NCBI GenBank assembly: GCA_040757115.1
Contig: JBFLYA010000057.1
Location: 1-19,449 of the forward strand
Reading direction: 5' to 3'
DNA length: 19,449 nt
Source of the DNA: a bacterium
GTDB lineage: Bacteria; UBA9089; CG2-30-40-21; SBAY01
Below, piece by piece: positions 3,621 through 19,449 of the stretch. The translations under genes and the position numbers were made by a program. The notes beneath the pieces are model-generated. The model worked only from the letters and a program-made list of their open reading frames with translations, was not told where the DNA came from and did not search any database. Every line of letters starts with the position of its first letter. Positions within the stretch are counted from its first letter, which is position 1.

Positions 3621-3836
3621 ATGAAACTCAAAGAAAAAATTTATCACGCGATGACAATGATGAAAAGTGATGAATTATGGTTATTGTATGAGCAAATACA
3701 ACTCATTCAACATCTTAAGCAAATTTCACGACCACAAAAAAACCGGATGACGATTGATGATATTTTAACTATGACCAGTTCTTCACACGAATGTTGGTCT
3801 GAGGCGGTAAAAGAAGACCGAATGGAACGGATATGA
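3621..3836 (+). CDS. Probable VapB-type antitoxin
   Basis: A 71-residue basic, helical protein located directly before a PIN-domain toxin fragment. I do not recognise a specific DNA-binding fold in it. The antitoxin call rests on size, position and the four-base ATGA overlap with the next gene, which is the usual coupling in vapBC pairs. AAGGAG lies upstream of the ATG at 3621. In such pairs the antitoxin neutralises the toxin and represses the operon. With the toxin truncated, this gene is probably a relic. Confidence 0.55.
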   Translation: MKLKEKIYHAMTMMKSDELWLLYEQIQLIQHLKQISRPQKNRMTIDDILTMTSSSHECWSEAVKEDRMERI

Positions 3837-4057
3837 ATTATTATTTCGATACCTCAGCATTAGTAAAGATTTACCATCGTGAAGACGGAACAGACAGAGT
3901 ACTTGTTATCTATAAAGGTGATGAGCCAATTGCAATTTCTGAGTTAAGCCGTATCGAATTCATAGCCACCGTAATGCGAAAATATCGTGAGCAGGCAATT
4001 ACGCTCGACACACTTCAGTCGCTCCTAACAAAATTTGTAAGCGTTCAGGTGGTGTAA
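3833..4057 (+). pseudogene. Truncated VapC-like PIN-domain toxin, interrupted by repeat element A2
   Basis: The N-terminus MNYYFDTSALVKIYHRE carries the first PIN acidic residue (D6), and ISELSRIEF contains the second conserved acidic region. PIN toxins are metal-dependent RNases of about 130-140 residues with four acidic residues; this frame stops at 74, so the later acidic residues are missing. The last residues (VSVQVV) are encoded by the terminal repeat of hairpin element A2, which begins at about 4034. After the element ends near 4276 I could not find a convincing continuation of the toxin in any frame, so a deletion accompanied or followed the insertion. The protein is almost certainly inactive as an RNase. 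Confidence 0.8.
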
Positions 4058-6130: not shown

Positions 6131-6135
6131 ACAGC

Positions 6136-6264
6136 AATTCTCGGTGAATTTTTAGAGACTGAATTCATCTATGTTGAGGAGAGATAGAGAAAAAAATTTT
6201 TCGTAAAGATTTTGAGAGGAAAATAAGGAATAATGAGTCTCTATCTAATTTTTCACCGAGAATT
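6136..6264. repeat. Second palindrome abutting A5
   Basis: AATTCTCGGTGAA (6136-6148) and TTCACCGAGAATT (6252-6264) are perfect 13-bp inverted arms. Inner AGAGAC/GTCTCT segments also pair, and similar TAATTACA-type sequence flanks both ends. With A5 it fills the region between rpoD and the tRNA promoter. No gene was seen. Confidence 0.6.
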
Positions 6265-6286
6265 TCTGGATAATTACAGAAATTAT

Positions 6287-6315
6287 TTGACAAAAATAAC
6301 TATGTATCGTATAAT
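6287..6315 (+). promoter_or_regulatory. Consensus sigma70 promoter for the tRNA pair
   Basis: TTGACA at 6287-6292, a 17-bp spacer and TATAAT at 6310-6315 match the consensus exactly. Initiation near 6322 would fall in the first bases of hairpin element B1, with the tRNA genes beginning at 6468. Transcription may continue into the zinc-ribbon gene at 6665. Confidence 0.8.
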
Positions 6316-6317
6316 TA

Positions 6318-6462
6318 TATAGTAACTATTAACCAAAAGTTCACATTAGTATTGTTGATAGTTGATGGTTGATAGTCTATGAAACTATAAACTATAAACT
6401 ATCAACCATCAACCCTGTTGCTATATCTGTTCTATGAGAAATTTTCGTTAATAACTACTATA
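6318..6462. mobile_element. Family B hairpin element, copy B1 (MITE-like)
   Basis: The ends TATAGTAACTATTAAC and GTTAATAACTACTATA are inverted repeats, and the core pairs GTTGATAGTTGATGGTTGAT with ATCAACCATCAAC. Element B2 at 8664-8808 is the same 145 bp in the opposite orientation with only two differences by eye. It lies between a perfect promoter and the tRNAs, starting three bases after the -10 box. Confidence 0.8.
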
Positions 6463-10184: not shown

Positions 10185-11120
10185 GTGGCAACTTTAAAAG
10201 AATTATCTCATAAGAAAGAACTTTTATCTGGTGGACATCGAGCGTGTGCTGGATGTACCGAACCAATAGCCGTCCGACAAATATTAATGGCAACAGACAC
10301 ACCAATAGTGGTGTGTTGTCCAACCGGGTGTCTTGAGGTGACGACAACTATTTTCCCTTATACTGCCTGGCGGATGCCATGGATACATTCTGCATTTGAA
10401 AACGCGGCGGCAACCATTAGTGGAGTAGAAACAGGGTATAAAGCCCTTAAAAAAAGGGGTAAAATTGACAAAGAGATTAAATTTATAGCGATAGGTGGTG
10501 ATGGTGGAACTTATGATATTGGTTTTCAATCACTATCTGGGGCAATGGAACGGGGACATAATATTCTCTATGTTTGCCTTGACAATGAAGCATATATGAA
10601 TACTGGTATTCAACGTTCAAGTGCCACACCAAAAGGTGCTCATACAACAACTTCACCTGCAGGTAAAGTTATCCCCGGGAAAAAGACATTTCGTAAAGAT
10701 TTAAGCGCGTGTATTGCCGCTCATAATGTTCCTTATGTGGCTCAATCTATTCCCAGTATGTGGAAAGATTTAACCAATAAGGTTCAAAAGGCATTAGCCG
10801 TGAACGGACCTACTTTTATCAATGTTCTGGTGCCTTGTAGATTAGGTTGGGGATTTCCACCTGAAAAGGCGATTGATATTGGTCGAGAAGCAGTTAATTC
10901 TTGCTTTTGGCCATTATATGAAGTAGAAAATGGCGAATGGAAATTAACTTATAAACCGAAAGAAAAAACCCCAGTAAAAGATTGGTTGAAATCTCAAGTA
11001 AGGTTCAAACACTTATTTAGACCGGAAAATGAGTCTATACTCCAGGAGATACAGACAGAAGTTGACCATAATTGGGAAAGACTTCAAAAATTATGTGAAT
11101 TTAGTGTCGGACTTGTCTAA
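10185..11120 (+). CDS. porB: Pyruvate:ferredoxin oxidoreductase beta subunit
   Basis: Thiamine-diphosphate-binding beta subunit, partner of PorA. The N-terminal HRACAGCTEPIAVRQ holds a CxxC of the iron-sulfur cluster site, and CCPTGCLEV follows. The thiamine-diphosphate/Mg motif is GGDGGTYDIGFQSLSGAMER to DNEAYMNTGIQRS (about residues 105-148). TPKGAHTTTSPAGK is typical of pyruvate-type PorB. A further conserved cysteine region is LVPCRLGWGFPP. Length 311 aa fits. The GTG at 10185 follows GAGGAGG by about ten bases. The gamma and delta (ferredoxin-like) subunits found in four-subunit PORs are not adjacent, so they are encoded elsewhere or absent. Confidence 0.92.
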   Translation: MATLKELSHKKELLSGGHRACAGCTEPIAVRQILMATDTPIVVCCPTGCLEVTTTIFPYTAWRMPWIHSAFENAAATISGVETGYKALKKRGKIDKEIKFIAIGGDGGTYDIGFQSLSGAMERGHNILYVCLDNEAYMNTGIQRSSATPKGAHTTTSPAGKVIPGKKTFRKDLSACIAAHNVPYVAQSIPSMWKDLTNKVQKALAVNGPTFINVLVPCRLGWGFPPEKAIDIGREAVNSCFWPLYEVENGEWKLTYKPKEKTPVKDWLKSQVRFKHLFRPENESILQEIQTEVDHNWERLQKLCEFSVGLV

Positions 11121-11866: not shown

Positions 11867-12166
11867 ATGAGAAATAAATACACAGCAATAATTCGTAAAA
11901 GCAAATTTGAATATGTTGCTGTATGTTTAGAATTGAATGTTTCTGCCTGTGGAGAAGATCTTGCTGATGTAGAGAAAAACCTAAGAACGGCAATAGAATT
12001 GTATGAGGAAGATATAAGAAAATATCCAAAAACAGTTGTGTCTTCTATTTCTCCTGAGGAGTTGATAGAGTTTTTGAAAGATACAGAGCCTGAATGGTAT
12101 AAAGAGCCCAAGAAGGGTCTGATATTAAGACCTCTTGAGGTACATGAGGTTCCATCATATGCTTAA
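11867..12166 (+). CDS. hicB: HicB-family antitoxin
   Basis: A 99-residue protein with the HicB partial RNase H-like fold: YTAIIRKSKFEYVAVCLELN, VSACGEDLADVEKNLRTAIELY, then an acidic tail. HicB binds and neutralises the HicA mRNA interferase and usually represses its own operon. AGAGGAG precedes the ATG at 11867. It overlaps hicA by eight bases (ATG of hicA at 12159 inside the last hicB codons). The antitoxin gene comes first, the less common order for hicAB but well known. No separate C-terminal helix-turn-helix is evident. Confidence 0.85.
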   Translation: MRNKYTAIIRKSKFEYVAVCLELNVSACGEDLADVEKNLRTAIELYEEDIRKYPKTVVSSISPEELIEFLKDTEPEWYKEPKKGLILRPLEVHEVPSYA

Positions 12167-12326
12167 GATACCTGCTCTTTCCAGTAAAGAACTTGTCAGA
12201 TTATTGGAAAAAGGGGGAGTAGTATTTGTCAGACAGGGACCAACAGACCATGCTATATATTCAAGGATAGTTGAAGGAAGAAGATATTCTACTCCTGTCA
12301 GGCTCATTTTAAATCACGGGGCGTAG
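12159..12326 (+). pseudogene. hicA: HicA-type toxin, truncated at tRNA-Pro
   Basis: The frame from ATG 12159 gives 55 residues: MLKIPALSSKELVRLLEKGG, VVFVRQGPTDHAIYSR and EGRRYSTPV. This matches the start of the double-stranded-RNA-binding-like HicA fold with its conserved histidine (TDHAIY). Related proteins usually continue for about 20-25 residues with a helical C-terminus. Here the frame instead runs through LILNHGA and stops inside the 5' end of tRNA-Pro. The last ten bases overlap the tRNA. The simplest reading is that a rearrangement joined a broken toxin gene to the tRNA, leaving an inactive or altered toxin. A longer in-frame TTG start at 12135 exists but fits the family less well. 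Confidence 0.75.
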
Positions 12327-12424: not shown

Positions 12425-13411
12425 CTATAGTTTGTTTAAAGTTTGAATAAAGGGTTGATAGGCAATACCTTTTTCCGTAATAATTGCTTTAATAAATTTA
12501 TTCGGGGTAACATCAAACGCGGGTGAATAAACATTTATTCCCTCAGGTGCAGTTCTTTTACCAAATCCATAAGTAATTTCGTCTGCTTCTCTTTCTTCTA
12601 TGGGAATTTGTGAGCCATCTTCTAATGACAAGTCAATTGTAGATGTAGGCGCAACAACATAAAAAGGAATATTATGTTCTTTGGCTAATACTGCCACGCC
12701 ATAGGTACCAATTTTATTAGCTGTATCGCCATTTTGGACGATTCTATCCGCACCAACGATAACGAGATTGATTTTCCCTTGTTTCATTACCATTGCGGCC
12801 ATATTATCACAGATTAATGTTACATCAATTCCTGCTTGCATTAATTCCCAGGTAGTTAATCTTGCACCTTGTAATAAAGGTCTTGTTTCATCTGCAAACA
12901 CCTTAATTTTCTTACCTTGTTTTTGGGCCGTGTATATAGCCGCAAGTGCCGTTCCTATGCCACCGGTGGCTAATGCCCCAGCATTACAATGAGTAAGAAT
13001 CGTATCACCATTTTTTATTAATGAGGCACCATATTCACCCATCTGGCGGCATTTTTCTCTATCATCCTCATGAATTGATTTAGCCTCTTTTAATAACGCC
13101 TCTTTTAATTCTGAGCCTTTATGATTTTTCGCACATTTCGCCATCCTTTGTAATGCCCAAAATAGATTAACTGCCGTTGGTCGAGTGCTCTCCAGAAGTT
13201 TAATACTCTGTTCTATTCTATTTACACCCAGGACAACGCCATAAGCCGCGGCAACACCAATAGCTGGTGCCCCTCGGACCCGTAATTTTTTTATTGCCTC
13301 GGCGACTTCATCCACAGTGCTACATTCTAAATAAACCAGTTCCTCTGGCAATTTCGTCTGGTCTATAATCTTTAATTTATCATCTTCCCATTTAATCGTT
13401 TCAACTATCAT
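12425..13411 (-). CDS. mtnA: S-methyl-5-thioribose-1-phosphate isomerase
   Basis: Isomerises methylthioribose-1-phosphate to methylthioribulose-1-phosphate in methionine salvage; related sugar-phosphate isomerases also act in nucleoside catabolism. Signature segments are RVRGAPAIGVAAAYG (about residues 44-58), THCNAGALATGGIGTAL with the catalytic cysteine C142, and VGADRIVQNGDTANKIGTYG with the catalytic aspartate D222. Counting from the chosen start the protein is 328 aa. An upstream ATG at 13429 would add six hydrophobic residues, but it lies between the -35 and -10 boxes of the apparent promoter and lacks a ribosome binding site, so the ATG at 13411 is preferred. No other methionine-salvage genes are adjacent. 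The gene faces the rest of the window. Confidence 0.93.
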   Translation of the reverse strand: MIVETIKWEDDKLKIIDQTKLPEELVYLECSTVDEVAEAIKKLRVRGAPAIGVAAAYGVVLGVNRIEQSIKLLESTRPTAVNLFWALQRMAKCAKNHKGSELKEALLKEAKSIHEDDREKCRQMGEYGASLIKNGDTILTHCNAGALATGGIGTALAAIYTAQKQGKKIKVFADETRPLLQGARLTTWELMQAGIDVTLICDNMAAMVMKQGKINLVIVGADRIVQNGDTANKIGTYGVAVLAKEHNIPFYVVAPTSTIDLSLEDGSQIPIEEREADEITYGFGKRTAPEGINVYSPAFDVTPNKFIKAIITEKGIAYQPFIQTLNKL

Positions 13412-13419
13412 AACCACGA

Positions 13420-13448
13420 ATATTAACATAAAAATTGGGATTTGTCAA
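13420..13448 (-). promoter_or_regulatory. Sigma70 promoter for mtnA
   Basis: On the minus strand, TTGACA (13448-13443), a 17-bp spacer and TAATAT (13425-13420) precede mtnA. Initiation about seven bases after the -10 would fall near 13413, practically at the preferred ATG at 13411, implying a leaderless or nearly leaderless transcript. Confidence 0.6.
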
Positions 13449-13461
13449 TTTTTTTATTCTG

Positions 13462-13479
13462 ACCGAAAAATAGACATAG
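13462..13479 (-). repeat. 18-bp inverted repeat, left arm, upstream of mtnA promoter
   Basis: ACCGAAAAATAGACATAG is the exact reverse complement of 13992-14009. It sits 13 bp upstream of the mtnA -35 box. The AT-rich spacers between arm and -35 box are also similar on both sides. Confidence 0.75.
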
Positions 13480-13503
13480 GATAGAAAAAAACGATAAAAC
13501 CCC

Positions 13504-13552
13504 TTGTATTTTGATGAGTTTTGTGATATAATTATTATAACCACAATGGTTA
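13504..13552 (+). promoter_or_regulatory. Orphan promoter with operator-like palindrome
   Basis: TTGTAT (13504-13509), a 17-bp spacer and TATAAT (13527-13532) form a good sigma70-like promoter. TAACCA-CAA-TGGTTA (13538-13552) is a perfect 6+6 palindrome at the expected transcription start, as for a repressor site. Downstream there is no credible gene: element A4 begins at 13561. Confidence 0.5.
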
Positions 13553-13560
13553 AAAAAACT

Positions 13561-13777
13561 GTAACCGTTCAGGTTCCTCCAAATATCAAAATGCAAAAAG
13601 CAAATATAAAAATTACATATCAAAATGTAAAATTATCTCTTTCAGCGTTAAAATACTTGAAGTCCTTTTTGAAATTTGATTTGTAATTTTGCATTTTGAT
13701 ATTTGATTTTTGATATTTATTTGTTGTTTCCCCCAAATCCTATTTTGCAGAATCCTATACACCAACTGAACAGTTAC
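13561..13777. mobile_element. Family A hairpin element, copy A4
   Basis: GTAACCGTTCAGGT (13561-13574) and CCAACTGAACAGTTAC (ending 13777) are inverted family A ends. The core pairs AATATCAAAATGCAAAAAGC with GCATTTTGATATTTGATTTT, a palindrome of degenerate short repeats unlike the cores of A2, A3 or A5. No transposase is encoded. Confidence 0.7.
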
Positions 13778-13991
13778 AAAAAACTGGTAATGGGGTAATG
13801 AGATAGAAAGAGAGAAGTTGTTTGAATTTGAGGGGATTGAGAGTGATTTAAGGGGGAGTCCGCTGTCTGCGTTGCTGAGGTAAGAGGCAAAAAGACAACC
13901 AAGCCCCAAAACAGGATATTTTTGTCAGTCGTACTATGTCAAACGGGTTAAAAAATGCCTTTATACAGGATAAAGAGGAGTATGACCATTT
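13778..13991 (+). other. Non-coding region with a possible gene-end remnant
   Basis: The frame 13791-13883 encodes a 30-residue stretch with no start codon, EKLFEFEGIESDLRGSPLSA near its end, that reads like the tail of a real small protein whose front is missing. The orphan promoter at 13504 and element A4 lie just upstream, so it may be the residue of a disrupted gene. The rest, to the 18-bp inverted repeat at 13992, shows nothing recognisable. Confidence 0.25.
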
Positions 13992-14009
13992 CTATGTCTA
14001 TTTTTCGGT
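13992..14009 (+). repeat. 18-bp inverted repeat, right arm, upstream of the cas promoter
   Basis: CTATGTCTATTTTTCGGT is the exact reverse complement of 13462-13479. It lies 15 bp upstream of the -35 box of the promoter at 14025, in the same relative position and orientation as the other arm has to the mtnA promoter. Confidence 0.75.
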
Positions 14010-14024
14010 TTCAAAAAATAATTG

Positions 14025-14053
14025 TTGACATTTGTTTAACACTATGGTATATA
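14025..14053 (+). promoter_or_regulatory. Sigma70 promoter for the nucleotidyltransferase-csm operon
   Basis: TTGACA (14025-14030), a 17-bp spacer and TATATA (14048-14053) precede the nucleotidyltransferase remnant and the csm genes. Initiation would be near 14060. No other good promoter was seen inside the operon. Confidence 0.7.
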
Positions 14054-14099
14054 TATCTCAAAACCCTATATCACCGGGCTATCGAGTCCCTATTAAAAA

Positions 14100-14408
14100 A
14101 TCTTAATTTGTGCCGTTGTTGAGTATAGATTCATTGATACATTAAAAAAAGAATTTCTCGATAAAGGAGATTTACTTTACGGTTCATTTGCCACTGGAGA
14201 AATTCACCAAGGAAGCGATATTGACATGGTCATTGTAGGTGAATTTAAGGGTAAGATATTTGAGCGGATAGAAAAGGTGCTAAAACTTACTGATTTACCT
14301 ATCGAGCCGCTTGTCTATTCTGAAAAGGAATTCCAGCAAATGAAGGAAGGCAATCCCTTCATAAAAGAGGTCATAAAGAGGGGGAAGATTTGCTATGCCA
14401 GAGAATGA
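14100..14408 (+). pseudogene. Minimal nucleotidyltransferase (MNT-type), start codon missing
   Basis: The open frame encodes about 100 residues with the polymerase-beta-type nucleotidyltransferase motif LYGSFATGEIHQGSDIDMVI, including the GS and paired acidic DxD residues. It then runs LPIEPLVYSEKEFQQM and ends KRGKICYARE. That is nearly a full MNT domain of the kind paired with HEPN proteins in toxin-antitoxin systems. No ATG, GTG or TTG occurs in frame between the upstream stop (14091-14093) and the motif; the first in-frame ATG (14226) lies after it. Either a rare start such as ATT at 14106 is used, or the 5' end is lost or frameshifted. Its stop overlaps the cas10 ATG by 14 bases, suggesting translational coupling. 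No HEPN partner is next to it. Confidence 0.7.
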
Positions 14409-14547
14409 AAAAAACCAATCAGACTACCAATCAATAATGTTAGCCGCACTTTTGCATGATATTGGCAAATTTATGCAAAGGGCAGAGGTTAAACTGAGTG
14501 CCCAGTCAGAAAGGATGAAGGAATACTTATGCCCTAAACATAAATAA
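14395..14547 (+). pseudogene. csm1: Cas10/Csm1 N-terminal fragment with HD motif
   Basis: ATG 14395 opens a 50-residue frame, with AALLHDIGKFMQRAE holding the HD nuclease motif (H21, D22) that begins Csm1-type Cas10 proteins. It continues SERMKEYLCPKHK and stops at 14545. The residues MKEYLCPKH recur at the start of the 812-residue downstream frame, because the DNA is duplicated there. Removing 73 bp between the two copies would fuse this fragment in frame to the rest, giving an 852-residue Cas10. The remaining HD-domain residues (SHKH, SSYHHKP, EADCLSAGVDR) are in the downstream frame, so the domain is split between two polypeptides, if both are made. Confidence 0.85.
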
Positions 14548-14614
14548 TGGATAGTGTGTAGTTTTCCCTCCCAGTCAGTCAGAAAGGATGAAGGAATACT
14601 TATGCCCTAAACAT
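14501..14614. repeat. Partial tandem duplication that splits cas10
   Basis: Copy 1 (14501-14541) and copy 2 (14570-14614) both read CCCAGTCAG...AAAGGATGAAGG through CCTAAACAT; copy 2 has four extra bases (TCAG). Between them are 28 bases with stop codons. The right edges are 73 bp apart, which is not a multiple of three. Confidence 0.9.
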
Positions 14615-17026
14615 CCACCAAAACATCCCAATGATGATGGTTATTCCCACAAACATACCCTCTGGACAAATGAATTCTTTGAACCTATAGTTTCAAACCT
14701 ACCTCCTGAAATCAATAAAACCGATGTAGTTAACCTATCAAGCTATCACCATAAGCCAGCCACAGATCTACAGACAATAATTCAAGAGGCTGATTGTTTA
14801 TCTGCTGGTGTAGATAGAACAACCAACGATGAAGAAGATGAGCAGTTTGGAAAAGATGCTTACAAAAAGAGAAGGTTACGAGCGATATTTGAACAGATTG
14901 AATTAAATTATCCTCTGAAACGAGACGAGAAAGGTAATCTAAAAAATATTTATCGTTACGAACTATTACCATTAAACTTACAAAAGCAAACTATCTTTCC
15001 TAAAAAACAGAGTAAACTTAGTCCACCTGAAGGTGAACTTTTAATAAATGAATATAATAACCTCTGGAAAGGGTTTATTAAAGAATTTAACCAGCTACCT
15101 GTTGACAACTTTGACCTCTTCTTTAACTCCCTTTATTATCTTCTACAAAAGTACACCTGGTGTATCCCTGCTTCAACTATTGACTTCCCAGATGTATCCT
15201 TATTTGACCACCTAAAGACTACTGCGGCTATCTCCGGATGTCTTTATAAATACCATTTACAAAATGAATCTTTTAATGAACAATCTATTAAAAATAGAGA
15301 TGTAGATAAGTACCTTTTGGTTTGTGGGGATATAAGCGGAATCCAGCAATTTATTTACAAGATTTCCTCCAAAGGAGCGGCAAAGGGATTAAAGGGAAGG
15401 TCATTCTACCTACAGATACTCCCAGATGCTATTGCTCACCATATCCTGCATAACACAGGGTATCATATAGTAAATCTGCTATATTCTGGTGGTGGTAAAT
15501 TCTATCTCTTGTTAGACCCCAACTCTGAAAACACCTTAAAGGATATTGGTAAAGAAGTTAACACCTATTTGTTGGAGCAATTTCAGGGAGGCGTATATCT
15601 TGCGTTAGGATGGTGTCATCTTAAAGGGAGTGATTTTGCTAAAAGGGAGAAGGTGGAAAGTGAATTTTATCTAAAATGGCAGGAATCTACCCGGGAGGCA
15701 AATAAGAAAAAAAGGCAGAAGTTCTCAGAATTTCTATATAATGAGGTTTTTGGTATTTTTGGTGAAGGAGCTGAAACGAAAACCTGCGAGATATGTAAAA
15801 ACGAAATAGTTGAGAATGAAACAAAATGTCCTGCTTGTGTCCTAAACGAAAAGATTGGGACAAGATTGGCAAAAGTAGGTAGAGGATTTATGTTAGAAAC
15901 CTATAACCAGGAAAAGGAAATTGATGAAGAGGGCTTTATTTTTGAACTATTAGGAATAAAATACTATCTTATCTCCAAAGATGAGATAAATAATATCAGA
16001 TCTGAACATGCAATGCTTTATACCATAAATACTACTGATATGTCCTTTATAAGGAAAGATATTACCTCTGGCTTCAAATTTATTGCTGGGAATTTCGCTC
16101 CTTCAGATAAAGAGGGAAATATTTTAACCTTTGGTGAATTAGCACAAAATTCCTCTGGTGGCTTAAAGAGATTAGGAATATTAAGAATGGATGTAGATAA
16201 TCTTGGTCAGATATTTATCAAAGGCTTGGGCAAGAAGGCTTCTATATCACGGGTAACTGAACTTAGTAGAAAATTGGAACTTTTCTTTGGGGGGTATCTG
16301 AATGAAATTGTCCAACAACAAAGTTATGACAATAAGGTTTATATCGTATATTCAGGTGGAGATGATCTCTTTATAGTAGGGGCATGGGATGTAATGCCTG
16401 AATTGGCAAGAGAGATACAGCAAGAATTTAAAACATTTACTTGCTCAAACCCTAATATTAGCTTATCTGGAGGTATTACCTTAATCCCTGGGAAATATCC
16501 CATCTATAAAGGTGCTGAATTAGCAGGGGAATCTGAAGAAGATGCAAAGAATTACAAAAGAAACGGAAAAGAAAAAGATGCGTTATCTTTCTTAAATACA
16601 GTAGTAAGCTGGAATGAATTTGAGGTAGCTTATGCAATTAAAGATATGCTGGTAAAATCTATAAAAGAAGGGAAAATAGATAATCTTTCCGGAGAAAATG
16701 TGTATCTAAAAAAGGGAATACTTGAACGATTGAGGCAAATTTATTTACTCTATCAGAAGAATAAAAATTTCTGGGAAACCAGGCAAACACAGATTAGTCA
16801 ACAAGAAATGCAAGAAAGAATTTACTACAACCAATGGTTATGGATGATGGTCTATTCCTTAGAAAGATATAGAGAACAGAATAAATTGTTTCAAGAGGAG
16901 GTGAGTCAGCTTATCCATGCTATCCTCGGTAAAGAATTTAACGGAATAAAGTCTGACCGCGAGGTCATTGATTTTATCAACTTACCTGCCCAGTGGGCAG
17001 AATTTTTAGTTAGAGAGGAGGGATAA
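14588..17026 (+). CDS. csm1: Cas10/Csm1, main part (type III-A CRISPR)
   Basis: Large subunit of the Csm interference complex, which makes cyclic oligoadenylate signals and, through an HD domain, cuts single-stranded DNA during target transcription. In order, this 812-residue frame has the rest of the HD domain (YSHKHTLWTNEFFE, SSYHHKP, EADCLSAGVDR). The first palm domain follows with GDISGIQQFIYKISSKGA and LKGRSFYLQ. Next come a four-cysteine zinc finger (CEICKN...CPACV, about 399-418), the second palm with LRMDVDNLGQIF, and the cyclase motif SGGDDLF (GGDD at 590-593). A helical C-terminal domain ends the protein. GGDD is intact, so signalling could survive. The first 40 residues, including the HD pair, are in a separate frame. 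Two bases separate its stop from the csm2 GTG. Confidence 0.93.
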   Translation: MKEYLCPKHPPKHPNDDGYSHKHTLWTNEFFEPIVSNLPPEINKTDVVNLSSYHHKPATDLQTIIQEADCLSAGVDRTTNDEEDEQFGKDAYKKRRLRAIFEQIELNYPLKRDEKGNLKNIYRYELLPLNLQKQTIFPKKQSKLSPPEGELLINEYNNLWKGFIKEFNQLPVDNFDLFFNSLYYLLQKYTWCIPASTIDFPDVSLFDHLKTTAAISGCLYKYHLQNESFNEQSIKNRDVDKYLLVCGDISGIQQFIYKISSKGAAKGLKGRSFYLQILPDAIAHHILHNTGYHIVNLLYSGGGKFYLLLDPNSENTLKDIGKEVNTYLLEQFQGGVYLALGWCHLKGSDFAKREKVESEFYLKWQESTREANKKKRQKFSEFLYNEVFGIFGEGAETKTCEICKNEIVENETKCPACVLNEKIGTRLAKVGRGFMLETYNQEKEIDEEGFIFELLGIKYYLISKDEINNIRSEHAMLYTINTTDMSFIRKDITSGFKFIAGNFAPSDKEGNILTFGELAQNSSGGLKRLGILRMDVDNLGQIFIKGLGKKASISRVTELSRKLELFFGGYLNEIVQQQSYDNKVYIVYSGGDDLFIVGAWDVMPELAREIQQEFKTFTCSNPNISLSGGITLIPGKYPIYKGAELAGESEEDAKNYKRNGKEKDALSFLNTVVSWNEFEVAYAIKDMLVKSIKEGKIDNLSGENVYLKKGILERLRQIYLLYQKNKNFWETRQTQISQQEMQERIYYNQWLWMMVYSLERYREQNKLFQEEVSQLIHAILGKEFNGIKSDREVIDFINLPAQWAEFLVREEG

Positions 17027-17028
17027 CC

Positions 17029-17439
17029 GTGCAAAATCAGGAAAGAATCTGGACAGAGCAACAGATTGAACAAATTATTAATGGTGACACAAAACAATTG
17101 GTGGCTACTGCAGAGAAGTTGGGTAAAGATTTGTGTGATAAGAAGGATGAGAGGGGTAATATTTTGTCTAAGGGAATGACCAAATCACAGATTAGGAATA
17201 TCTTTAATTCTGTTAAGCAGATGGAGATGAAAGGCTTCAATCCAAAAGATCTGTTATTGCTAAAGCCTAAACTGGCTTATGCTGCAGTTCGACCAGGAGC
17301 GACAAACGGAACCAGAGTGATTAAAGATATTCTTACTAAAGCAATTGATAAGGTAGGTGATGACGCTAAAAAATTTGATAATTTCTGCAACTTCTTTGAG
17401 GCTATCCTGGCTTATCACAGAGCCGCAGGCGGAAAATAA
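17029..17439 (+). CDS. csm2: Csm2, small subunit of the Csm complex
   Basis: The 136-residue helical protein occupies the standard csm2 position between csm1 and csm3. Segments such as MTKSQIRNIFNSVKQMEMKG and LLLLKPKLAYAAVRPG, followed by FCNFFEAILAYHRAAGGK, are typical of Csm2. It forms the inner belly of the complex and helps hold the RNA duplex, without catalytic function. The GTG at 17029 is preceded by GAGGAGGG at a good distance. Confidence 0.92.
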   Translation: MQNQERIWTEQQIEQIINGDTKQLVATAEKLGKDLCDKKDERGNILSKGMTKSQIRNIFNSVKQMEMKGFNPKDLLLLKPKLAYAAVRPGATNGTRVIKDILTKAIDKVGDDAKKFDNFCNFFEAILAYHRAAGGK

Positions 17440-17456
17440 AAGGAGGTGTTTTGAAG

Positions 17457-18209
17457 ATGGATAACGATTTTAAATTACTCAAGAAGATATTTATAACTGG
17501 CACAATAGAGGTAAAAACAGGGCTTTGTATCGGTGGAAGTAGTGTAGGATTAGAGATTGGAGGCGCAGATAAGGTTGTGGTAAGAAACCCCATCAATAAT
17601 CAACCCTATATCCCAGGCTCATCACTTAAAGGAAAGATGAGAAGTTTATTAGAAAGATTTGAGGGGAAAATGAGTATTAAAGAGAAAAAGGATGAAAAAG
17701 GCAACATCATTGGCGTGAGTGCTGAGCCTTGTGAATGTGGAACCTGTTTAATCTGCCAGATTTTTGGTCTTCCTGCAGAAAAAAAGGGAATGCCAGCCAG
17801 ACTGATTGTTCGAGATGGAATGTTACAAAATCCCGAATTGCTTGAAAAGAGTAAATTTACTGATATGCCCTATGCTGAGATTAAAGCAGAGGTGGTAATA
17901 GATAGGATTACTTCTGTCGCTACACCAAGAACCTTTGAACGGGTGCCAGCTGGTGCAAAGTTTAATCTTAACCTTGTATGTAATATCTATAACGGTGATA
18001 CAGAGTCAGATATCTTAAAGAAGATATTTGAATCACTTATCAAGGTTCAGGAGGATTATTTGGGAGGAAGTGGCACAAGGGGATATGGAGAGATAAAGAT
18101 TACAATCAATACGCCACTAAAATATAAAGACCAAACTGTCTATGAAGGGGATAATAATCCAAAAAGTATACAAAATAATAGCCTTATCCCTTCTCAGCTT
18201 CTTTCGTGA
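17457..18209 (+). CDS. csm3: Csm3, backbone RNase of the Csm complex
   Basis: A RAMP (Cas7-group) protein that polymerises along the crRNA and cleaves target RNA every six nucleotides. Near the N-terminus, GLCIGGSSVGLEIGGADKVV contains the conserved aspartate (D38 from the ATG), which corresponds to the catalytic Asp of characterised Csm3. PYIPGSSLKGKMRSLLE is the family signature, CECGTCLICQIFG the cysteine-rich zinc-site segment, and GGSGTRGYGEIKI the C-terminal glycine-rich loop. It is 250 aa from ATG 17457; a TTG six bases earlier is only four bases from AGGAGG, so the ATG is preferred. The stop overlaps an upstream in-frame GTG of csm4. Confidence 0.94.
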   Translation: MDNDFKLLKKIFITGTIEVKTGLCIGGSSVGLEIGGADKVVVRNPINNQPYIPGSSLKGKMRSLLERFEGKMSIKEKKDEKGNIIGVSAEPCECGTCLICQIFGLPAEKKGMPARLIVRDGMLQNPELLEKSKFTDMPYAEIKAEVVIDRITSVATPRTFERVPAGAKFNLNLVCNIYNGDTESDILKKIFESLIKVQEDYLGGSGTRGYGEIKITINTPLKYKDQTVYEGDNNPKSIQNNSLIPSQLLS

Positions 18210-18220
18210 GGAAATGGAAG

Positions 18221-19210
18221 ATGGAAGATATAACCGCATATAAACTTGAGTTTAAAACACCATTACATCTTGGTCAGGAAGGGATTGGATTAGAAAAGAC
18301 TGATATGATAATCCATTCAGATACCCTCTTTTCAGCTCTTCTCTCTTGTTGGAACCTATTTTATGCTGATGACTTGGAAAAGGAAATAATTAATAATCCA
18401 CCTTTTATCATCTCTTCTGCTTTCCCCTTTAGTAAAGATGACTATTTTCTTCCAAGACCTATGATAAGGATAACCCTGAACCAAGAGGTTCAATCTAAGC
18501 AGATAAAAAAGATTAGATTTATCTCAAAGGGGCTATTTGAAAGGATAATTATAGGTGAGGAGGTCTTGTTCACGGAAGAAAATACTCTACAAGGTGGTTT
18601 ATTCTGGACAGAAACACAAGACACATCTCAAGGAATATTTAAAAAGCGGGAGGTTCCCCGGGTAAGTATTGACCGACGAACAAATACCTCGGATATATTC
18701 TATTTTAATGAGCTGGTATTTACACAAGGTTGTGGTTTATTCTTTTTGGTTAAGTTCTTATCTCCCCAGATAAGACAAAAATTTGAAACGGTGCTAAACC
18801 TCATGGGAGATGAAGGAATAGGTGGTGATAAGCATCTGGGAAAGGGTGTATTTGATGTATTAAAGGATGAGCCGTTCAAATTAAACACACCATCACAAGC
18901 TAATCACTTTCTTACCCTCTCTCTGTTTCATCCTACAGAAGATGAGATAAAAAAAGGACTTCTTAATAATTCAAGCTATGAACTCATCCTTCGTAGGGGT
19001 TGGCTTCACTCTAAAGGTGCAATGAGCCTTAAGAGAAAAAGCATACGAATGTTTCTTGAAGGTTCTGTATTTAAAGAATTTGGCCAAAAGGGTTATGGCA
19101 ATATCCCAAATGTCCTGGAAAAAAATGAGGAACTAGGGACTAACCATAATGTCTATCGTTATGGAATAACCTTTAATATTCCTATCAAAGTGAGGGACAA
19201 TTATGAATAA
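18221..19210 (+). CDS. csm4: Csm4, crRNA 5'-handle-binding RAMP protein
   Basis: A Cas5-group RAMP protein that caps the Csm backbone at the crRNA 5' tag and contacts Cas10. ITAYKLEFKTPLHLGQEG and HSDTLFSALLSCW form the typical N-terminal region. EDYFLPRP-like sequence (KDDYFLPRPMIRI) follows, with VSIDRRTNTSDIFYF in the middle and the glycine-rich MGDEGIGGDKHLGKG loop near residues 200-210. From ATG 18221 it is 330 codons including the stop; a GTG at 18206 gives a version five residues longer, overlapping the csm3 stop. The ATG is favoured by GAGG about nine bases upstream. It overlaps the csm5 start by eight bases. Confidence 0.92.
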   Translation: MEDITAYKLEFKTPLHLGQEGIGLEKTDMIIHSDTLFSALLSCWNLFYADDLEKEIINNPPFIISSAFPFSKDDYFLPRPMIRITLNQEVQSKQIKKIRFISKGLFERIIIGEEVLFTEENTLQGGLFWTETQDTSQGIFKKREVPRVSIDRRTNTSDIFYFNELVFTQGCGLFFLVKFLSPQIRQKFETVLNLMGDEGIGGDKHLGKGVFDVLKDEPFKLNTPSQANHFLTLSLFHPTEDEIKKGLLNNSSYELILRRGWLHSKGAMSLKRKSIRMFLEGSVFKEFGQKGYGNIPNVLEKNEELGTNHNVYRYGITFNIPIKVRDNYE

Positions 19211-19349
19211 ATATAATATCTCTGTTTTAAGCCCAATTCATATTGGAAATGGAAATAAATTAAGCACGATAGATTTTGTCTATGACAATAATACCCTTTG
19301 GATTATTGACATTGAAAAGGTTATACTCGATGTTCAAGTTTTTGGATAG
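19203..19349 (+). pseudogene. csm5: Csm5 N-terminal fragment
   Basis: ATG 19203 overlaps the end of csm4 and opens a 48-residue frame: ISVLSPIHIGNGNKLSTIDF, VYDNNTLWIIDIEKVI, then LDVQVFG and a stop. The first 40 residues match the beginning of Csm5, a Cas7-group RAMP subunit at the crRNA 3' end that helps recruit trimming nucleases. Csm5 normally has roughly 350 or more residues. The next 100 bases to the window edge have stops in the continuing frame, so the gene is broken by a deletion or insertion here. The rest could lie beyond the window if something has been inserted. Confidence 0.8.
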
Positions 19350-19449
19350 GACTCAATATGATAGAAGTTTTTGGCACGAATTAGCTAAATAAAGAAAGGT
19401 CTTTTGCCGATAGTAGAAATAGTGTGAAGACACGAAATTTACTATTCGG
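19336..19449. other. Junction sequence after the csm5 break
   Basis: AAGTTTTTGG occurs at 19336-19345 and again at 19365-19374, a direct repeat spanning the csm5 stop. Further on, CCGATAGTAGAAAT (19407-19420) and ATTTACTATTCGG (19437-19449) form an imperfect stem-loop at the window edge. This could be the end of an inserted element. No coding sequence was recognised. Confidence 0.35.

Follow-up and report, generated by a model that had tools for sequence, protein, structure and literature searches.

A nucleotidyltransferase frame overlapping cas10 of a type III-A csm operon is probably the remnant of an MNT-HEPN toxin-antitoxin module

The DNA analyzed here, called the window below, is the 19,449-nucleotide contig JBFLYA010000057.1 of the bacterial assembly GCA_040757115.1; the features of its MNT-csm region all lie on the forward strand. 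Directly upstream of a type III-A csm operon, the stop-to-stop frame 14097-14408 encodes a minimal nucleotidyltransferase (MNT) domain, which scored 36.2 bits with PF01909 and 36.3 bits with PF18765 and exceeded the curated cut-offs of both (21 and 26.9, respectively). The catalytic motif GSX10DXD is complete (GSFATGEIHQGSDID), and an alignment with relatives showed the DxD residues to be intact, confirming the MNT domain with a GS...DID motif that a sequence-only reading of this DNA had recognized. The nearest solved structures are those of a Legionella MNT antitoxin (8xeo and 8xeh; E value of 7e-5 for 8xeo). With the NCBIfam model MntA_antitoxin (NF047752) the frame reached 21.8 bits and stayed below the 60-bit threshold, and matches to the PADLOC models PDC-M05A and PDC-S09 were attributed to the shared NTase domain only. 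MNT genes are common in this genome, as PF01909 has 29 matches in its 4.3 Mb.

No ATG, GTG, or TTG is present in the frame 14097-14408 ahead of the conserved domain, in agreement with the sequence-only reading, and no Shine-Dalgarno site is left for it; translation of a full-length MNT protein could conceivably begin at an ATT at 14106. DNA searches of the genome identified positions 14004-14127 as a copy of a dispersed repeat with the 3′ border ...TCTTAATTTGTGCCGTTGTTGAGTATA, which includes a TTGACA site and the first ~10 codons of the frame (14097-14127); these codons are the repeat end and not MNT sequence. When the upstream region was searched, 14009-14103 proved to be dispersed, with some copies extending to 14127. 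Copies were found on contigs C191, C230, C8, C166, and C203 (two copies) of the source genome (G000) and on contig C424 of a sister species of the same genus (G001), and the 3′ 27-38 bp of the repeat also occur on C45, C116, C150, C285, and C302 of the source genome and on G001:C152. The 3′ part, ...AAAATCTTAATTT[GA]TGCCGTTG[TG]TGAGTATA, recurs at roughly twelve further places in the genome and once in the sister species. In copies that reach the border, the shared sequence stops at GAGTATA and is followed by unrelated sequence. The copy on C302, for example, encodes KILIYAVVEY and then unrelated codons, and the MNT frame starts with KILICAVVEY. Because the copies share sequence only up to this GAGTATA border, the native MNT part begins at 14128. 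The native start codon and ribosome-binding site of the MNT gene are, as judged from these comparisons, lost and replaced by the repeat, which ends sharply at 14127.

The remaining native part (14128-14408) is a 5′-truncated MNT remnant, identified as such by PF01909 and PF18765, the alignment of relatives, the match to 8xeo, and the missing start codon. It comprises 93 open codons, and its catalytic residues and C-terminal half are intact. In 11 MNT relatives, 18 to 36 residues precede the LFGS motif, compared with 15 or 16 native residues in the MNT frame. Relatives therefore have a longer gene with a start where this one has neither, which is largely what the sequence-only reading had expected to see if the front had been deleted. 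The same reading had placed the gene behind a good promoter. The promoter-like TTGACA, however, is part of the dispersed repeat, and a promoter scan did not list it because its −10 partner is weak. Positions 13430-14127 as a whole are pieced together from several dispersed repeats. At 13575-13763, an AT-rich palindromic MITE-like element was observed that has dozens of copies in the genome and in the sister species. On C302 (locus L166, 1501-1949), a copy of the repeat border adjoins a HEPN gene fragment.

The 3′ end of the MNT frame has the organization of an MNT-HEPN gene pair. The partners of the MNT relatives are HEPN proteins of PF05168, and in 16 of 26 MNT-then-HEPN pairs, according to a scripted count over the fetched loci, the ATG of the HEPN gene lies on the +1 position of the C-terminal Tyr codon of the MNT gene. 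An apparent Tyr+1 HEPN start was also seen at two loci outside the scripted scoring (L014 and L007). The MNT frame ends in the tail KRGKICYARE, and the ATG at 14395-14397 is located on +1 of its Tyr codon, with an offset of −11 that is identical to that of six of the 16 Tyr+1 pairs. Based on this geometry, the Shine-Dalgarno-like stretch AGAGGGGGAAG together with this ATG (14376-14397) is regarded as a former HEPN initiation site. Counted from the ATG at 14395 to the end of the MNT stop codon (14406-14408), the overlap is 14 bases, in agreement with the sequence-only reading. The codons TAT GCC automatically create an ATG at Tyr+1 (TAT followed by a codon that begins with G), and the presence of the ATG at 14395 is therefore inherited from the MNT gene.

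No HEPN gene adjoins the MNT frame in the window, as noted previously; csm1 follows instead. The csm1 gene of the sister species (G001:C9) aligns from its own ATG at window position 14405 onward, the window having one base fewer, so that csm1 homology starts 10 bases past the ATG at 14395. Because homology to the csm1 of the same genus begins at 14405, this position, and not 14395, was probably the inherited csm1 start. The N terminus of cas10 is now in frame with the HEPN-type ATG because of the one-base difference; the chance that such a frame match is fortuitous is 1 in 3. The alignments place csm1 at the presumptive former position of HEPN, with the junction a few bases past the HEPN start; this former start would now drive the translation of cas10. 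Two candidates for further traces of the ancestral arrangement were rejected. HEPN fragments on C30 and C302, examined as remnants of the lost partner, could not be linked to the csm locus. The homology of the window to the sister-species orthologue of the neighboring mtnA gene stops near 13461, and the mtnA-side locus of the sister species, considered as a version predating the insertion, has neither a csm locus nor an MNT gene beside it.

The csm operon itself is damaged. A 5′ fragment of cas10/csm1 with the HD motif LLHDIGKF (14395-14547), which matches the first positions of the TIGR02578 profile, ends at a premature stop codon, a break that the sequence-only reading had not mentioned. A 39-bp direct duplication (14503-14541 and 14576-14614, within 14503-14614), with 34 bp of single-copy DNA in between, gives a net gain of 73 bp that shifts the frame starting at 14395, so that it stops at 14547; no other copy of the 34-bp spacer was found in the genome. 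Because of this 73-bp insertion, the HD motif is separated from the palm domains, which are encoded together with the GGDD motif, and without an HD motif, by the rest of csm1/cas10 (14588-17026; 666 bits with TIGR02578, plus PF22335 and PF18211). The following genes csm2 (17029-17439; PF03750 and TIGR01870), csm3 (17451-18209; TIGR02582), and csm4 (18206-19210; TIGR01903) look intact, and the sequence of the 5′ part of csm5 (19203-19449) is apparently frameshifted and cut by the contig end. The second csm1 gene of the genome, on C7, has lost the HD motif as well. Rfam models gave no match above the gathering score over 13400-19449.

The csm1 loci on G000:C7 and G001:C9 have the orthologous order cas6-MNT-csm1. 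Their MNT frames, at 6133-6432 of locus L047 (C7) and 10746-11055 of locus L048 (C9), each contain one single-base frameshift, at different places. Like the frame in the window, they precede a csm1 gene of this genus; unlike it, they belong by sequence to another subfamily and do not overlap csm1. We take them to be of the HI0073-like type. The two csm1 genes (L047, 6512-8851; L048, 11324-13921) have nearly identical first ~17 codons and the same cas6-MNT upstream region, and their bodies look divergent, which suggests apparent recombination within csm1. The occurrence of an MNT gene before csm1 at two independent positions in the genus is above the expectation from MNT density alone and would fit mobile toxin-antitoxin modules gathering in defense loci.

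Outside the genus, the arrangement did not recur. With an MNT-protein profile applied to the csm1 flanks in a survey of 386 genomes, mostly of different families and 46 of them with a Csm1 match, no MNT gene was found outside this genus. A further sample of 80 csm1 loci, taken from public genomes and including 70 with an upstream stretch of more than 600 bases, contained one unrelated, nonoverlapping NTase gene ~0.6 kb upstream of csm1 (Brocadia, L264). Neither collection thus revealed a recurrent MNT-csm association across lineages, an outcome that the sequence-only reading had named as evidence against its own proposal. We found no literature report of an MNT protein as a type III accessory, and MNT goes unmentioned in the 2025 CRISPR classification. 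The type III-A operon of Thermodesulfovibrio sp. SKYB4 (L282, 4886-5576), one of the 80 additional loci, resembles the window in harboring an MNT gene with the same junction geometry, but there MNT and HEPN are both intact and the pair occupies another operon position, between csm3 and csm4.

We consider it likely (probability of about 0.8) that the MNT frame is the antitoxin remnant of an MNT-HEPN (type VII) module in which the csm operon replaced HEPN and a repeat removed the start. With such modules it shares the fold family, the GSX10DXD motif, the size, the C-terminal Tyr codon with the overlapping +1 ATG, and the Shine-Dalgarno stretch for the next gene; it differs from them in that its start and first residues are dispersed repeat and that csm1 replaces HEPN. 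Features of the DNA itself are the repeat border, the lack of a start codon, the HEPN-like placement of the ATG, the missing HEPN gene, and homology to csm1 from 14405; the order of events is what we infer from them. An ancestral MNT-HEPN module would have lost HEPN, with the csm operon now in its position and joined within a few bases of its start. Separately, the dispersed repeat would have been placed at 14127/14128, removing the start codon and ribosome-binding site of the MNT gene. The frame would then be untranslated, as we presume, or marginally translated, and have no adjacent partner to nucleotidylate. MNT antitoxins act by nucleotidylating their HEPN partner, for which the role of the GSX10DXD motif was shown (PMC11586414); such activity is unlikely here, as the frame lacks both a start codon and a partner next to it. 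The MNT 3′ end would now serve as a csm leader, its old HEPN Shine-Dalgarno stretch and ATG being in frame with the cas10 N terminus, and a function as csm operon leader and ribosome-binding site is probably the residual, passive role of the segment. Decay is widespread: cas10 is split, csm5 is shifted, and both other csm1-adjacent MNT frames of the genus are frameshifted. The frame is thus, most likely, a genomic relic of an ordinary kind rather than a novel CRISPR component. Of the two possibilities left by the sequence-only reading, the relic gained support from the repeat at the gene front, the missing HEPN partner, and the lack of recurrence outside the genus, whereas an unusual type III-A accessory gene did not, as no comparable MNT-csm1 pairing exists outside the genus in the loci surveyed; nor does a frame without an evident start allow any claim of translational coupling to cas10. 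Against a remnant speak the 93 open native codons and the intact catalytic residues; the frame may be young or under selection. The ATT at 14106, the two MNT positions before csm1 in the genus, the automatic origin of the Tyr+1 ATG, the possibly fortuitous frame match with cas10, and possible indel errors in the assembly also count against it.

A more far-reaching scenario, which we regard as unlikely, is that CRISPR operons recycle remnants of toxin-antitoxin modules as expression signals; the csm operon would have been captured at the HEPN start and the MNT 3′ end reused as its ribosome-binding site, with the MNT fragment possibly expressed. Less probable is that the missing start and the broken cas10 and csm5 genes are assembly errors and that the MNT-csm operon is intact in the true locus. 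The assembly is fragmented into 462 contigs, csm5 lies at a contig end, and both a 39-bp duplication and indels of single bases are of the kind that assemblies typically get wrong, so that some of the indels may indeed be errors. The repeat-MNT junction, however, is a clean switch between real sequences and not a homopolymer slip, even if a chimeric join at the repeat is possible, and in either version csm1 would still have no HEPN gene in front of it. It is very improbable that the MNT is a functional accessory enzyme of the type III-A system, initiated at the ATT at 14106 and nucleotidylating a Csm protein, tRNA, or a distant HEPN effector. The intact GSX10DXD motif and C-terminal half would fit such an enzyme, as would the MNT genes of some kind that precede csm1 at two independent places in the genus. 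Arguments against it are the frame's lack of both start codon and Shine-Dalgarno site and its repeat-derived front, the restriction of the MNT-csm1 pairing to the genus in the loci surveyed, the different subfamily and the frameshifts of the C7 and C9 MNT genes, and the broken state of cas10 and csm5 themselves. We assign the lowest probability to an orphan MNT that still neutralizes the HEPN toxin of another locus in the genome. The approximately two dozen HEPN matches of this genome and the frequency of solo antitoxins (PMC2701414) count in its favor, but the frame has no start codon, its native N-terminal helix is shortened, and several of the resident HEPN genes adjoin an MNT gene of their own.

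The remnant interpretation mainly advises caution with gene overlaps in defense operons, as such an overlap may be a scar left by toxin-antitoxin turnover instead of a sign of functional coupling, and a Tyr codon overlapped by an ATG helps to recognize MNT genes that lack their former HEPN partner. Other toxin-antitoxin traces were observed in the window. At 3621-4057, a truncated 74-amino-acid PIN-domain frame behind a 71-amino-acid frame with no Pfam match is a possible VapBC-type remnant, and at 11867-12326 there is a HicAB-like pair whose HicA match lies under the Pfam cut-off.
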